Assembly (NCBI GenBank): GCA_002813285.1 | Contig: PHTZ01000001.1 | Location: 2,727,501-2,791,500 of the forward strand | DNA length: 64,000 bases | Source: Flavobacteriaceae bacterium MAR_2009_75 | Lineage (GTDB): Bacteria; Bacteroidota; Bacteroidia; Flavobacteriales; Flavobacteriaceae | Direction: 5' to 3' | Shown here: piece by piece, positions 25,753 to 32,477 of the stretch | Layout: each line of letters begins with the position of its first letter | Numbering within the stretch: position 1 is the stretch's first letter | Program-made: the position numbers and the translations under genes | Notes under the pieces: model-generated | The model's database searches: none | What the model saw: only the letters and a program-made list of their open reading frames with translations | Told to the model about the DNA's origin: nothing

Positions 25753-27204
25753 ATGAATACCAAATACATCGATCTTATCGATCAAACTTATTACTTCCCA
25801 CAAGAAGAGTTTACGCTAGAAGACGAGTTTCTTCGTTTTCACGGCATTCCATTAAATGAGTTGGTAGAAAAATATGGTAGCCCGTTGAAGTTTACCTATC
25901 TCCCTAAAATCTCCCAAAATATAAATCTTGCCAAACAATGGTTCGCGAACGCCATTGAAAAGCATAATTATAAAGGCAGGTATCATTATTGCTACTGCAC
26001 CAAAAGTTCACATTTTCAGCATGTACTGAAAGAAGTACTGAACAATGAGGTTCACATTGAAACTTCGTCGGCCTTTGATATTAATATTGTAGAACAGCTT
26101 AAGAAATCAGGCAAGATTAAAGATGACACCTACGTTATCTGTAACGGATTTAAGAGAGAGCAGTATGTCGAAAACATAGCTCGCTTAATAAACCAAGGGC
26201 ATCAGAATTGCATACCCATTATTGATAATTATGAAGAGCTTGATTTGCTCTCTGACGCGATTACAGATGATTTTCAAGTAGGAATTCGTATTGCTTCGGA
26301 AGAAGAACCCAAATTTGAATTCTATACCTCTCGATTGGGCATAGGCTACAAGAATATAGTGCCCTTTTATGAAAATCAGATTAAGGATAATGATAAGGTT
26401 GAGCTAAAAATGCTTCATTTTTTCATTAATACCGGGATCAGGGATAATTCGTACTACTGGAACGAATTGGTGAAATGCTTAAAAGTCTACGTTAGACTCA
26501 AGAAAATTTGCCCAACCCTAGATAGTTTGAACATCGGCGGGGGTTTTCCTATTAAAAACACCTTGGCTTTCGAATACGACTATCAATATATGATTGATGA
26601 AATTATCAATCAGATCAATATTACCTGTCAAGAAGCCAACGTGCCGGTGCCACATATTTTTACCGAGTTCGGTAGTTTCACCGTTGGGGAGAGTGGGGGT
26701 GCCATTTATGAAATTCTGTACCAGAAACAACAGAACGACCGTGAGAAATGGAATATGATAGACTCTTCGTTTATCACGACTTTACCCGATACCTGGGCCA
26801 TTAATAAGCGATTTATTTTACTGCCCATCAACCGATGGAAAGATGAGTACGAACGTGTTCTATTGGGTGGTTTAACCTGTGATAGCGACGATTATTACAA
26901 CAGCGAACAAAATATGAACGCTATTTACTTGCCAAAATTCAAGAGAGACAAGCCACTATATATCGGTTTTTTTAATACGGGGGCCTATCAAGAAACGATT
27001 GGCGGTTTCGGCGGTCTGCAGCACTGTTTAATTCCGCAGCCGAAACATATCTTAATTGATAAAGATGTTAACGGTGATTTTACATATGAGCTTTTTAGTC
27101 AACAGCAGCGAGCCGAAGACCTTCTGTCGATTTTGGGCTACAACGTAAGTAAAGACGATAAGGCTTCAAAAGCCAAAGAAGAAAAGGTTGAGCTTGAGAG
27201 CTAA
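25753..27204 (+). CDS. speA: Biosynthetic arginine decarboxylase (fold III, PLP)
   Basis: This 483-residue PLP enzyme is of the alanine-racemase-fold decarboxylase group, in the shorter form typical of Bacteroidota (E. coli SpeA is ~650). The PLP lysine is in YCYCTKSS (Lys84). A glycine-rich phosphate-binding loop (LNIGGGFP, ~257) and a C-terminal catalytic Cys region (LLGGLTCDSDD, ~372) are visible. It converts arginine to agmatine and CO2 in the cytoplasm. Agmatinase follows 65 bases downstream, so the pair makes putrescine. An 18-bp palindrome lies upstream. Confidence 0.95.
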   Translation: MNTKYIDLIDQTYYFPQEEFTLEDEFLRFHGIPLNELVEKYGSPLKFTYLPKISQNINLAKQWFANAIEKHNYKGRYHYCYCTKSSHFQHVLKEVLNNEVHIETSSAFDINIVEQLKKSGKIKDDTYVICNGFKREQYVENIARLINQGHQNCIPIIDNYEELDLLSDAITDDFQVGIRIASEEEPKFEFYTSRLGIGYKNIVPFYENQIKDNDKVELKMLHFFINTGIRDNSYYWNELVKCLKVYVRLKKICPTLDSLNIGGGFPIKNTLAFEYDYQYMIDEIINQINITCQEANVPVPHIFTEFGSFTVGESGGAIYEILYQKQQNDREKWNMIDSSFITTLPDTWAINKRFILLPINRWKDEYERVLLGGLTCDSDDYYNSEQNMNAIYLPKFKRDKPLYIGFFNTGAYQETIGGFGGLQHCLIPQPKHILIDKDVNGDFTYELFSQQQRAEDLLSILGYNVSKDDKASKAKEEKVELES

Positions 27205-27269
27205 AATGAGTTGATATTTTCTGCGGAAATGTTATAAGAATTAGAACTAATAGATTTAATTATAATAAA

Positions 27270-28211
27270 ATGAGTACAAAAAAGAATTACGCCGGAATTC
27301 CCGACGAATTCGCACAACTTGAAAAGGCAAAAATCATTTTGATTCCTGTGCCTTATGACGGAACAAGCACTTGGGGAAAAGGTTCGGATAAAGGTCCTCA
27401 AGCGTTTTTAGAAGCTTCTGAAAATATGGAGCTTTATGATATTGAAACTGATACCGAGGTCTACGAGCAAGGTATTCATTTAACGGCACCTATTACCGAG
27501 AACAGTTCGGCCGAAGCCATGGTGAATGCCGTACACAAGACAACCAAGGAGTATATTAAACGAAACAAATTCGTGACCTTGGTTGGTGGTGAGCACTCCA
27601 TTTCTATTGGTACCATTAGGGCCTTTAATGAATGCTTCGATAATCTTACGGTTTTGCATATTGATGCCCATGCCGATTTGAGAGAATCGTACGAAGGCAC
27701 AAAGTATAATCATGCTTGCGCCGTTCATGAAGCGAGTCAAACTACTAACCTGGTTCAAGTTGGTATTCGTTCTATGGATGCTATCGAGAAAACCTTTATG
27801 GATGATGAGAAAACATTCTTCGCCCATGATATGGTCAACGATGAATATTGGATCGACAAGGTTATTGAGTCATTGACCGATAATGTGCTGATAACTTTTG
27901 ACTTAGATGTATTGGATCCATCGATAATGCCATCTACTGGAACGCCTGAACCAGGCGGACTTTTCTGGTATGAGACATTAGATTTTCTAAAGCAGGTTTT
28001 TGAAGAAAAAAATGTAGTTGGCTTCGATATGGTAGAGCTGTGCCCGAACGAGCATGACAAGAGTGCAGATTTTCTGGCCGCCAAATTATATTATAAAATG
28101 CTTAGCTATAAATTTATGGGTAAGGCGGCCGATGAAGAATATGATAATACCTACGATGTAGATTATAAAGCGGCTAACGCAAGTTTAAAATATGACGATG
28201 ACGAAGACTAA
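27270..28211 (+). CDS. speB: Agmatinase (ureohydrolase, Mn-dependent)
   Basis: This 313-residue arginase-family enzyme carries all binuclear Mn motifs: GGEHS (~108), DAHADLR (Asp132-His134-Asp136) and FDLDVLDPS (~210-218), followed by GTPEPGG, which favours agmatinase over arginase. It hydrolyses agmatine to putrescine and urea. It overlaps the next gene by 14-20 bases, showing tight coupling with the deoxyhypusine-synthase-like protein. Confidence 0.95.
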   Translation: MSTKKNYAGIPDEFAQLEKAKIILIPVPYDGTSTWGKGSDKGPQAFLEASENMELYDIETDTEVYEQGIHLTAPITENSSAEAMVNAVHKTTKEYIKRNKFVTLVGGEHSISIGTIRAFNECFDNLTVLHIDAHADLRESYEGTKYNHACAVHEASQTTNLVQVGIRSMDAIEKTFMDDEKTFFAHDMVNDEYWIDKVIESLTDNVLITFDLDVLDPSIMPSTGTPEPGGLFWYETLDFLKQVFEEKNVVGFDMVELCPNEHDKSADFLAAKLYYKMLSYKFMGKAADEEYDNTYDVDYKAANASLKYDDDED

Positions 28212-29175
28212 GGGCGAAATTTCAAAATTTATAGAAAAATACTATTTGCACTTCAACGCTGCGGCGCTGGTTGACGCGGCGAAAGGCTACGAAGACCAAT
28301 TAAATGATGGGGCGAAGATGTTGGTTTCTTTGGCCGGGGCGATGAGCACAGCAGAACTGGGCAAGATATTTGCTGAAATCATCAGGCAAGATAAAGTGCA
28401 TATCGTGTCTTGTACGGGTGCCAATTTAGAGGAAGATATCATGAACTTGGTGGCCCATTCCCATTATAAAAGGGTACCCAATTATCGCGATTTGACCCCC
28501 AAAGAGGAGTGGGGTCTTTTAGAAAAAGGCCTTAATCGAGTAACCGATACCTGTATACCCGAAGAAGAGGCTTTTAGAAGGTTGCAAGAGCATATTTTCA
28601 AGATTTGGAAAGATGCCGAAGAGAAAGGCGAACGGTATCTACCTCATGAATTTATGTATAAAATGCTACTTTCAGGAGTGTTGGAAGAGCACTATGAAAT
28701 CGACCTAAAAGACTCGTGGATGTATGCTGCGGCAGAGAAAAATTTACCGATTGTTTGCCCTGGCTGGGAAGACAGTACCATGGGTAATATTTTTGCTTCT
28801 TATGTGTTGAAGGGCGAACTGAAAGCCAGTACCATGAAATCAGGTATCGAATACATGACATTTTTGGCAGACTGGTATACTGATAATTCAGAAAACGGCA
28901 TCGGCTTCTTTCAAATCGGTGGTGGTATTGCCGGTGATTTTCCTATTTGCGTGGTGCCCATGCTCTATCAAGATATGGAGCGCACAGAAACCCCATTCTG
29001 GAGCTATTTCTGCCAAATTAGTGATTCGACCACAAGCTATGGATCCTATTCCGGAGCGGTACCCAATGAAAAGATAACTTGGGGAAAGTTAGATATAGAT
29101 ACCCCTAAATTTATTATTGAAAGCGATGCAACTATTGTTGCCCCATTAATTTTTGCATATCTTCTAGACCTATGA
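28192..29175 (+). CDS. Deoxyhypusine synthase-family protein (catalytic Lys missing)
   Basis: This 327-residue protein (start ATG 28192 or 28198) is of the DHS family: LVSLAGAMSTAELGKI, VSCTGANLEEDI (~85), VCPGWEDSTMGN (~190) and a C-terminal KITWGKL. DHS transfers an aminobutyl group from spermidine through an imine with an active-site Lys in GGG(V)xK. Here the loop reads QIGGGIAGDFP, with Gly at the Lys place. Bacteria lack eIF5A, and the gene sits in a speA-speB operon, so a polyamine reaction is likely. The altered loop means that neither classical DHS nor homospermidine synthase chemistry can be assumed. Confidence 0.9.
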   Translation: MTMTKTKGEISKFIEKYYLHFNAAALVDAAKGYEDQLNDGAKMLVSLAGAMSTAELGKIFAEIIRQDKVHIVSCTGANLEEDIMNLVAHSHYKRVPNYRDLTPKEEWGLLEKGLNRVTDTCIPEEEAFRRLQEHIFKIWKDAEEKGERYLPHEFMYKMLLSGVLEEHYEIDLKDSWMYAAAEKNLPIVCPGWEDSTMGNIFASYVLKGELKASTMKSGIEYMTFLADWYTDNSENGIGFFQIGGGIAGDFPICVVPMLYQDMERTETPFWSYFCQISDSTTSYGSYSGAVPNEKITWGKLDIDTPKFIIESDATIVAPLIFAYLLDL

Positions 29176-29504
29176 GCAATAAAAGAGACCATTCAAATCT
29201 AAAACGTGTTATCGTTGATTTTAAAAAATTGACTCCTGAAGTTCTTAAGCTTCTGGTAGAAAGGTACCCTGATGGTTACGATGACAGAAATATAATATCT
29301 TTCAAAAATGCTCAAGGCGAACGTATCGAGGCTGTAGAAGTTTTGACTGAAGACACCAAATATTTGGTGAAAATTAGCGCCAAGCTTGAGTATACTATGG
29401 AAAATTATGATGAAGATGACTATGAAGATTTTGACGATGATGATCCAGAAGCGGTGGTTGAACCAGACCCCGAAGCGATGGATGACGTTGAAGATGATGA
29501 TTAG
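29172..29504 (+). CDS. Small protein with acidic tail in the polyamine operon
   Basis: This 110-residue protein overlaps the DHS-like gene by ATGA. Residues 1-72 form a compact alpha/beta region (VIVDFKKLTPEVLKLLVERY; FKNAQGERIEAVEVLTEDTKYLVKI). Residues ~75-110 are almost all Asp, Glu and Pro, a disordered acidic tail. I do not recognise the family's function. The acidic tail beside cationic polyamine genes invites the idea of polyamine or ribosome binding, but nothing in the sequence proves it. Confidence 0.8.
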   Translation: MSNKRDHSNLKRVIVDFKKLTPEVLKLLVERYPDGYDDRNIISFKNAQGERIEAVEVLTEDTKYLVKISAKLEYTMENYDEDDYEDFDDDDPEAVVEPDPEAMDDVEDDD

Positions 29505-29576: not shown

Positions 29577-31106
29577 ATGATTTCGAAAGACATAGAAAAT
29601 GTTGAGCTGAAATTTTTAGACCTGAAAGATTATCAGGAACTGAAAACAGCCATGAAAGAGGTATATAAAAATATACCCGATTCATATTGGGCAGAAAAGC
29701 AGATTAAATCTCTTATTAAACTGTTTCCCCAAGGGCAGGTCGTAATCAAGGTCAACGGTCAATTAGCAGGTTGTTCGCTATCGATTATTGTAGATTACGA
29801 CGAGTTTGAAGACACGCACACATTTCAAGAGATTACGGGTCAAGAAACCTTCAGTACCCATACCGAAGACGGAGACATTCTCTACGGTATAGACGTTTTC
29901 ATTAAACCAGAGTTTCGCGGTCTTCGCTTGGGTCGACGCCTGTACGATTACCGCAAAGAACTTTGTGAAAAGTTGAACCTTAAGGGTATCGCTTTTGGGG
30001 GCAGAATACCTAATTACCATGAGTATGCCAACGAGTTGACTCCTAAGCAGTACATCGACAAGGTAAAATTGAAAGAGATTCATGACCCCGTCTTAAGCTT
30101 TCAAATCAATAACGATTTTCATCCCTCTAAAATTTTGAAAGGGTATTTAGAAGGTGATAAAGCTTCTAAAGAGTTTGCCGTTTTGATGGAGTGGGATAAT
30201 ATTTATTATAAAAAACCCAATAAAAAGGCGGCCACAAAAAAAAGTATCGTCCGTCTAGGCCTAATTCAGTGGCAGATGCGACCATATGATCGCCTTGAAG
30301 AATTATTACAGCAGGCAGAGTTTTTTATTGATTCCGTTTCTGGTTATCGTTCCGACTTTGCGCTCTTTCCAGAGTTTTTTAATGCCCCTTTAATGGCGGA
30401 AAACAATCACCTTTCCGAATCTGACGCTATTCGGGAACTTGCGCAACACACTGAAGCCATAGTACAGAAATTCTCTGAGTTCTCAATATCGTACAATATC
30501 AATATCATTACGGGAAGTATGCCTGAAATGAAGGAAGATGGGTTGTATAATGTGGGCTATTTATGCAAACGAGACGGGTCGGTCGAGCGTTATGAAAAGT
30601 TACATGTGACCCCTGATGAGTCAAAGGTTTGGGGAATGCAAGGTGGTAATCAATTGAAGACTTTCGATACCGATTGTGGTAAAATAGGGGTGCTTATCTG
30701 TTACGATGTCGAATTTCCTGAACTAAGCAGACTATTGGCTGATGAGGGTATGGATATTCTCTTCGTGCCCTTTCTTACCGATACCCAAAACGGCTTCTCG
30801 CGAGTACGAAACTGTGCGCAGGCAAGGGCAATAGAAAACGAGTGTTACGTTGCCATTGCGGGTAGTGTGGGTAATTTACCCAAGGTTCATAATATGGATA
30901 TTCAGTTTGCCCAAAGTATGGTCTTTACACCCTGTGATTTTTCGTTTCCGACCAATGGAATAAAAGCGGAGGCCACTCCAAATGCGGAGATGATCTTAAT
31001 TGCCGATGTTGACATAGACCTATTGAGAGAACTGAACCAATTTGGTGCCGTTAGAAATTTGAAAGATAGAAGAAAAGATATTTTTGAACTTACAAAAAGA
31101 AAGTAA
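29577..31106 (+). CDS. GNAT acetyltransferase-nitrilase fusion protein
   Basis: This 509-residue protein has two enzymes. Residues ~1-205 are a GNAT domain (acetyl-CoA loop near FRGLRLGRRLYDYRKEL, ~118-132). Residues ~222-509 are a carbon-nitrogen hydrolase with the full triad: Glu in LFPEFF (~263), Lys in YEKLHVTPDE (~341) and Cys in GVLICYDVEFPE (~376). Nitrilase relatives include N-carbamoylputrescine amidase and omega-amidase. It follows the polyamine genes by 72 bases on the same strand, so acylated or carbamoylated amines are reasonable substrates, by context only. Confidence 0.92.
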   Translation: MISKDIENVELKFLDLKDYQELKTAMKEVYKNIPDSYWAEKQIKSLIKLFPQGQVVIKVNGQLAGCSLSIIVDYDEFEDTHTFQEITGQETFSTHTEDGDILYGIDVFIKPEFRGLRLGRRLYDYRKELCEKLNLKGIAFGGRIPNYHEYANELTPKQYIDKVKLKEIHDPVLSFQINNDFHPSKILKGYLEGDKASKEFAVLMEWDNIYYKKPNKKAATKKSIVRLGLIQWQMRPYDRLEELLQQAEFFIDSVSGYRSDFALFPEFFNAPLMAENNHLSESDAIRELAQHTEAIVQKFSEFSISYNINIITGSMPEMKEDGLYNVGYLCKRDGSVERYEKLHVTPDESKVWGMQGGNQLKTFDTDCGKIGVLICYDVEFPELSRLLADEGMDILFVPFLTDTQNGFSRVRNCAQARAIENECYVAIAGSVGNLPKVHNMDIQFAQSMVFTPCDFSFPTNGIKAEATPNAEMILIADVDIDLLRELNQFGAVRNLKDRRKDIFELTKRK

Positions 31107-32477
31107 TTGAGTGATTTAAAGATTATAGGTAGTGAAGAGTGGTGTGTATTTGAGAGTCTTGGAATTCCGGCAATAAAGGCCCGGGTTGATTCTGGTGCGA
31201 AAACATCTTCCATTCAGGCTACCAATACCAAAATAGTTATCAGGGGGGTGCAAGAATGGGTAAAATTTGAGGTTAATCCTTTACAGGAAAATCGCAGTAT
31301 TGCTATTCAATGTGAAGCCCAACTGGTAGACCGTCGAATGGTCAAAAGCTCTTCGGGTATATCTGAAGAAAGATTGGTTGTCAAAACGGCCGTAACTATG
31401 GGCGGTGAAACTTTCGATATTGAGCTGACCCTGGCGAATCGCGACACTATGGAGTTTCGAATGTTATTGGGTAGAGAGGCGATAAGCGATAGATTTATGG
31501 TCAACCCAGCTGTAAACTATCAGGTGCAGAGTTTTGAGGATGATGAAATCAATAAAAAGTACGCTCCTTATTTTAAGAAAAAGACCGGTTTGAAAATCGC
31601 CTTATTAGCGAGCAATCCGAATTTGTATAGCAATAAAAGAATCATGGAGGCGGCAGAGGCCCGAGGTCACGAAATTGTTTTTCTGAACGTGGAGCTGGCC
31701 TATATGAAACTTGATGCGCATTCGCCTGAAATAAGATATCGCGGAGGCAATATCTTAAAAGAGTTCGATGCCGTTATACCGAGAATAAAGCCCTCGGTAA
31801 CTTTTTATGGGTGTGCCTTAATACGACAATTCAATAATTTAGGAGTGTATTGCCAGAATGCCGCCGAGGCTATTTCACAATCAAGGGATAAACTTTTCGC
31901 TTCGCAGTTGTTTTCTAAAAACGATATACACATACCGATTACCGGTTTTGCCAAATCACCCGCCGACACCAAAGACCTAATAAAAATGGTGAATGGAGCC
32001 CCCTTAATCATTAAACTTTTGGAAAGTACCCAAGGTAAAGGTGTGGTTTTGGCTGAGACCAATAAGGCTGCTGAGAGTGTAATCAACGCTTTTAAGAGTG
32101 TGAATACTAATATTCTGGTACAAGAGTTTATTAAAGAGGCCAACGGGCAAGATATTCGGTGTTTCGTGGTAAATAATAAAGTAGTGGCGAGTATTCAGCG
32201 TCAGGCCGAGAAAGGTGAGTTCAGGGCGAACATACACCAAGGAGGCAAGGCTTCAATTGTCAAAATTACCTCTGAAGAGCGAAAACTGGCGCAAAAGGCA
32301 GCCAAAGTTCTAAATTTGGCGGTTGCTGGGGTCGATATTATCCGGTCTAACAAAGGGCCACTTTTACTCGAAGTAAATTCATCTCCTGGTCTCGAAGGTA
32401 TAGAAAATGCAACAGGTAAAGACATTGCAAATACAATGATTATGGCAATTGAGCGTAAACTTCGCTTCAATGGCTAA
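31107..32477 (+). CDS. RimB-RimK fusion: retropepsin-like zinc protease plus ATP-grasp glutamate ligase
   Basis: This 456-residue protein starts at TTG 31107, directly after the previous stop (TAATTG). Residues ~1-150 match the RimB/'ATP-dependent zinc protease' retropepsin-like domain ([19 protein letters not shown], ~20-38; [17 protein letters not shown]). Residues ~165-456 are RimK, an ATP-grasp ligase ([61 protein letters not shown]). RimK adds glutamates to ribosomal protein S6 and RimB removes them in other bacteria. Here both activities are in one chain. Confidence 0.92.

Follow-up and report, generated by a model that had tools for sequence, protein, structure and literature searches.

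A RimB-RimK fusion protein in Flavobacteriaceae bacterium MAR_2009_75, whose ribosomal protein S6 lacks an acidic tail

The window analysed here, a stretch of 64,000 nucleotides from Flavobacteriaceae bacterium MAR_2009_75, carries an apparently intact RimBK hybrid gene, in which a RimB-type protease domain and a RimK-type ligase domain both look complete from the translated sequence. The fusion itself is not new, and the window protein belongs to a published hybrid family. S6 is unlikely to be the target of RimBK; since S6 is without the expected tail, the likely product of the fusion is free glutamate chains, unless it modifies another target. Our preferred reading, held tentatively and with somewhat less than even confidence, is that RimBK is a self-contained poly-α-L-glutamate synthase and trimmer and not an S6 modifier. 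The gene, its parts and its upstream neighbours are as follows.

25753-29504, + strand: polyamine cluster with genes for an arginine-decarboxylase-like protein, agmatinase, a deoxyhypusine-synthase homologue and a small acidic protein (Pfam, NCBIfam; local context)
29577-31106, + strand: upstream neighbour, a 509-aa fusion of a GNAT domain with a carbon-nitrogen hydrolase (Pfam); its stop abuts the rimBK start
31107-32477, + strand: rimBK gene from its TTG start through the stop codon, encoding 456 aa (ORF list and translation)
31122-31520, + strand: RimB-type retropepsin domain PF05618 (Zn_protease), aa 6-138 (Pfam E 1.8e-30)
31188-31190, + strand: predicted catalytic Asp codon, D28, at which the motif DSGAKTSS starts
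31521-31589, + strand: linker between the Pfam domains, aa 139-161 (pLDDT <50 at 157-159)
31590-31874, + strand: RimK preATP-grasp domain (Rimk_N), aa 162-256 (Pfam E 8.9e-35)
31608-31613, + strand: A168-S169, replacing S7-R8 of the P. aeruginosa RimK glutamate-chain site (residue alignment)
31788-31793, + strand: K228-P229, replacing G66 and the next residue (residue alignment)
31884-32450, + strand: RimK ATP-grasp domain, aa 260-448 (Pfam E 4e-63)

The initial annotation had described a RimB-like protease and a RimK ligase joined in one chain, and this is borne out by a single frame with PF05618 at aa 6-138 and RimK at aa 162-448. It had named loss of the protease Asp as evidence against the proposal; the residue is retained as D28 in DSGAKTSS, by motif the equivalent of RimB D31 (PMC11957791; this and the other articles are cited from excerpts). 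The catalytic Asp of the D[S/T]GA motif is present in every hybrid examined, with one variant, DTGAQNS. The rimBK protein scored 384 bits with the NCBIfam S6--L-glutamate ligase model NF007764 (cut-off 331) and 110 bits with the RimB equivalog NF052261, under its cut-off of 200. An AlphaFold2 model had a mean pLDDT of 87.3 and a pTM of 0.64, with its minimum at linker residues 157-159, and in a structure search the RimK half matched P. aeruginosa RimK (7qyr) with a TM-score of 0.97 on the target. All 50 structure matches listed were ATP-grasp enzymes, so that the RimB fold assignment rests on sequence, with the PDB entries 9g58, 9g59 and 2pma as sequence matches of this domain. The chains 9g58 and 9g59 are probably RloA retropepsins. 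Pseudomonas RloA proteins share the PF05618 family and the active-site motif with the window domain, but they are separate proteins with signal peptides, whereas the window domain precedes RimK (PMC12239564).

The gene had also been said to abut its upstream stop, and indeed the TAA of the 29577-31106 gene is followed at once by TTG (TAATTG). An aligned TTG is found in all four genomes with the window gene order, abutting as TAATTG in three and lying one base past TAG in the fourth (G002). Read-through from the upstream gene was considered and rejected: by coordinates the two genes share a frame in 3/4 genomes, and in G002 the frame is different and the stop is TAG. A promoter scan gave 21 sites against 22.5 expected.

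Little et al. (2025) had already published the fusion under the name RimBK; of their 2226 accessions with rim genes, 12% carried it, most of them from Flavobacteriales and Rhodobacterales (PMC11957791). The term RimBK also appears in PMC7343187, PMC10092738 and PMC4741518, and can mean two separate genes together, so that the four papers do not amount to as many reports of the hybrid. We found one-frame hybrids in 8 of 60 relatives (window genome included), in 19 of 296 genomes of the phylum and in 73 of 80 loci from a named-genome scan, which used a Thioclava (alphaproteobacterial) hybrid as query and kept the best 80 of 538; this recurrence in relatives, phylum and scan makes the fusion more than chance. 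G286, with a frame of 354 aa, was counted as having separate genes. The initial annotation had set the fusion against separate RimB and RimK proteins in Proteobacteria, a contrast that did not hold, since the hybrid is published and, going by record titles, Alphaproteobacteria account for 62 of the 75 hybrid loci (among the best 80 of 538 in a scan led by an alphaproteobacterial query). No conserved neighbour of the hybrids was found in these 75 loci, where the commonest other family occurs in 24 (best 80 of 538), and the neighbouring families nameable by eye resembled what we take to be housekeeping genes.

In a quick tree of 79 RimK domains, where the window RimBK is represented by its 99.6% identical counterpart from G001, 45 hybrid rows group together with an SH-aLRT of 87 (not starred; 26 open forks). 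A branch of length 0.76 and support 100 leads to the Bacteroidota-type hybrid lineage, in which two gammaproteobacterial rows are included. The tree is compatible with one fusion or two. The RimBK proteins of L241, L243 and L244, MAGs labelled Sulfopaludibacter or Acidobacteria, group with Hyphomonas; in L241 and L244, where S6 was read, it too resembles that of Hyphomonas, and the labels or bins of these MAGs may be wrong. The window genome has a second, standalone RimK-like ligase at L003 (G000:C1:2429517-2433083), 302 aa long and 44% identical, next to a gene that by eye is succinylglutamate desuccinylase/aspartoacylase-like; such a neighbour is annotated on a Vibrio plasmid. No second RimB was found in this genome.

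The initial annotation had taken S6 as the target of RimBK, naming an S6 without an acidic C-terminal target as evidence against this. The sole S6 of the window genome, 112 aa long, ends KRRTRLKAKA and has no acidic C-terminus, which speaks against the claim. For comparison, S6 ends were read in 123 genomes, and a tail was called acidic at a net charge of -2 or lower over the last 15 residues; left out of this set were 25 of the 57 matched relatives (5 of the 13 with separate PF05618 among them), 39 of the 64 non-hybrid phylum positives and 31 of the 80 named-genome scan loci. An acidic tail was present in 4 of the 69 hybrid genomes and missing from the other 65, with counts of 0/30 in Bacteroidota, 1/34 in Alphaproteobacteria, 3/3 in Gammaproteobacteria and 0/2 in MAGs labelled Acidobacteriota. 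Genomes with separate RimB and RimK had such a tail in 19 of 38 cases, comprising 11/11 in the Bacteroidota family f37, 5/11 in other Bacteroidota, 0/11 in Flavobacteriales and 3/5 in Proteobacteria, and none of the 16 relatives without PF05618 had one. The difference between 4/69 and 19/38 corresponds to a Fisher p of 2e-7, which overstates the case because the test treats related genomes as independent; kinship explains much of the S6-tail pattern. All that we take from these counts is that RimBK persists in clades whose S6 offers no acidic tail. The f37 loci (L138-L142, L144, L145, L149, L151, L152 and L162) combine separate RimB and RimK with an acidic S6, a Pseudomonas-like arrangement outside Proteobacteria. 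Our literature search, which left subscription papers mostly outside its scope, found no paper that dealt with how S6 ends in genomes carrying the hybrid, or with a changed glutamate-chain site.

The RimK residues K141, R189, D248, E260 and N262 (E. coli numbering), which have catalytic or metal-binding roles, are kept in the window protein as K303, R351, D410, E422 and N424. In P. aeruginosa RimK, a bound glutamate chain contacts S7, R8, S14, R64, S68, R189 and N262 (PMC10092738). Five of these seven contacts are kept in the window RimBK, while S7 is replaced by A168 and R8 by S169, and G66 has become K228. The set A7-S8-[K/R]66-P67 is shared by all 29 Flavobacteriaceae hybrids, both Persicobacteraceae hybrids and 2 of the 5 gammaproteobacterial hybrids. 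It occurs in none of 34 non-hybrid RimKs, all of which have S7 and G66 and 31 of which have R8, and alphaproteobacterial hybrids keep R8 in 57 of 61 cases and G66 in 60 of 61. The basic residue at position 66 may substitute for R8; the changed residues could also lower ligase activity instead of redirecting it. The excerpts of PMC11957791 make no mention of a changed glutamate-chain site in the Bacteroidota lineage.

The synthase and trimmer reading is preferred because of the behaviour of the P. fluorescens enzymes, with which free polyglutamate was detected only when RimK and RimB were together, while ATPase activity rose fourfold and glutamylation of RpsF was in effect prevented (PMC11957791). 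The window protein agrees with it in having both domains complete and part of the chain site changed with the catalytic residues kept, next to a non-acidic S6 end. RimK forms tetramers (PMC10092738) and RimB acts as a dimer (PMC11957791), which would allow the protease domains of a RimBK tetramer to sit together as active pairs. We envisage that the RimB domain tied to RimK would hold the ligase in a polymer-making state, that RimK tetramers would unite the RimB domains as active retropepsin pairs, and that chain length would be governed by the balance of ligation and cutting. Counting against this reading, RimB lowers the ATPase activity of P. aeruginosa RimK (PMC10092738), and the literature searched contained no report of polymer synthesis by any RimBK. 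In addition, most hybrids belong to one or other of two large clades where S6 often has no tail in any case, and the changed-site gammaproteobacterial hybrids L261 and L267 do have acidic S6 tails. A more specific proposal, that the Bacteroidota RimBK is a dedicated poly-α-L-glutamate synthase for which the ribosome is no longer the target, fusion and a rebuilt chain site having given a single protein that makes the polymer and controls its length, is possible but on the doubtful side.

Among the known systems, D. psychrophila DP2392 RimBK, compared by its published description, also has RimB N-terminal to RimK in one chain; polyglutamylated RpsF was cut by the whole protein and by its RimB part, but no glutamylation of P. 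fluorescens RpsF was seen, and it may lack the activity or have another (PMC11957791). P. fluorescens RimABK has the same two domains; there, RimB cleaves polyglutamate and promotes the making of polymer by RimK. In contrast to the window protein, its RimB and RimK are separate, and its RpsF ends DNADE where the window S6 ends KAKA (PMC11957791). R8 and G66 of RimK are changed in the window RimBK. E. coli RimK belongs to the same ligase family and is about 56% identical to the window protein over the RimK part, but it has no RimB partner, and the E. coli S6 ends GDSEE (PMC11957791).

Two alternatives would have RimBK act on a protein. The main rival to our reading, conceivable though we would not expect it, is that RimBK attaches glutamates to some other protein with an acidic C-terminal end and trims them there. 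The candidate acceptors are a DUF5606 protein (139 aa, ending GASEEE), a DUF4494 protein (ending AMATEEE) and the small acidic protein of the polyamine cluster (ending DDVEDDD), and five proteins of at least 100 aa with an ATG and an end in [DE]EE are found in the window genome, two of them in conserved DUF families (matched on joined fragments). However, [DE]EE before a stop gave 15 matches and the reversed control also 15, and such ends were rejected as a sign of acceptors. The DUF5606 protein appears from its sequence to be the most S6-like candidate, and its last residue is E in 6 of 7 hybrid genomes. Nevertheless, the same holds for 10 of 13 genomes with separate PF05618 and 14 of 30 without it (which is not the same as without RimK), 11 of 17 within the family (p 0.46 and 0.10; ends read in 50 of 52 matching genomes). 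With no clear difference between the genome groups, a tie of the DUF5606 tail to rimBK was discarded. At L319:1501-1920 the GASEEE end of this protein is close to the E. coli S6 end, and a final E is present in 30 of 50 relatives, with or without PF05618. The small acidic protein was likewise dismissed as a general RimBK substrate, because it occurs in 42 of 60 relatives against 8 of 60 for rimBK and its ends do not track rimBK.

Modification of S6 after all, with glutamates placed onto a basic end, seems to us improbable. The NCBIfam S6--L-glutamate ligase match is above cut-off, and S6 could serve as target in the four hybrid genomes where its tail is acidic (L242, L250, L261 and L267). RimB also cuts tails placed after K-R, albeit more slowly (PMC11957791), and the basic end therefore does not prove that S6 is no target. 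Against it stand the S6 of the window genome and of 30/30 Bacteroidota hybrid genomes, which have no acidic or Glu end, and the D. psychrophila hybrid, with which RpsF glutamylation was not seen (PMC11957791). Moreover, in family f37, where separate RimB and RimK coexist with a tailed S6 (11/11), RimK keeps S7, R8 and G66.

A service of RimBK to polyamine metabolism, such as glutamylating a polyamine or coupling translation to the polyamine state, is very improbable. In three genera rimBK is the last gene after the polyamine cluster and the GNAT-nitrilase, with TTG at the upstream stop. Yet among the 60 relatives rimBK adjoins the cluster in only 4 of the 8 hybrid genomes, and the cluster is found without adjoining rimBK in G031, G022, G003 and G025, as well as in G042, where agmatinase is absent. 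G031, G022 and G003 contain both cluster and rimBK, far apart, and the hybrid relative G036 lacks the small acidic gene, the only gene of the cluster looked for there. A search for the four genes preceding the GNAT-nitrilase found none of them at 75 named-genome hybrid loci (flanks of up to 6 kb; among the best 80 of 538) or at 21 additional hybrid loci from Bacteroidota, 17 of which had 1.5 kb flanks, and the GNAT-nitrilase itself occurs at one of all these loci, L265. A few neighbours may have been missed, as ORF calling picked up even the hybrid frame in 65 of the 75 named-genome loci and not in all. The polyamine link of rimBK is local only, and the general coupling put forward in the initial annotation was therefore abandoned. 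Its phrase "self-contained writer and eraser" remains a fair anatomical description, while the S6 target and the general polyamine link that came with it are unsupported.

The polyamine neighbourhood has features of its own. The GNAT-nitrilase at 29577-31106 has N-carbamoylputrescine amidase as its best NCBIfam match, far under the cut-off. The bacterial deoxyhypusine-synthase homologue (28192-29175) is above the Pfam cut-off and under all NCBIfam cut-offs, the homospermidine and bis-guanidino-azanonane models included. The small acidic protein (29172-29504; 110 aa), two genes upstream of rimBK, has no Pfam or NCBIfam match, and its gene lies directly 3' of the deoxyhypusine-synthase homologue in the window and in all 8 fetched loci with both. 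A second copy of this protein in the same genome (L100:6929-7258) is about 41% identical, and no other gene of the window operon was labelled within the fetched 14 kb.

The activity of RimBK was left open in PMC11957791, where no S6 glutamylation by the hybrid was seen, and the S6 ends offer a reason: among the hybrid genomes read, an acidic S6 tail is absent from those of Flavobacteriaceae and from almost all of those of Alphaproteobacteria. They predict free polyglutamate or another acceptor as the product or target of these proteins, and they caution against the automatic name S6--L-glutamate ligase (NCBIfam; database records), which is probably wrong for the window protein. If the more specific proposal for the Bacteroidota RimBK is true, fusion and a rebuilt chain site would have turned a ribosome-modifying pair into a polymer maker.
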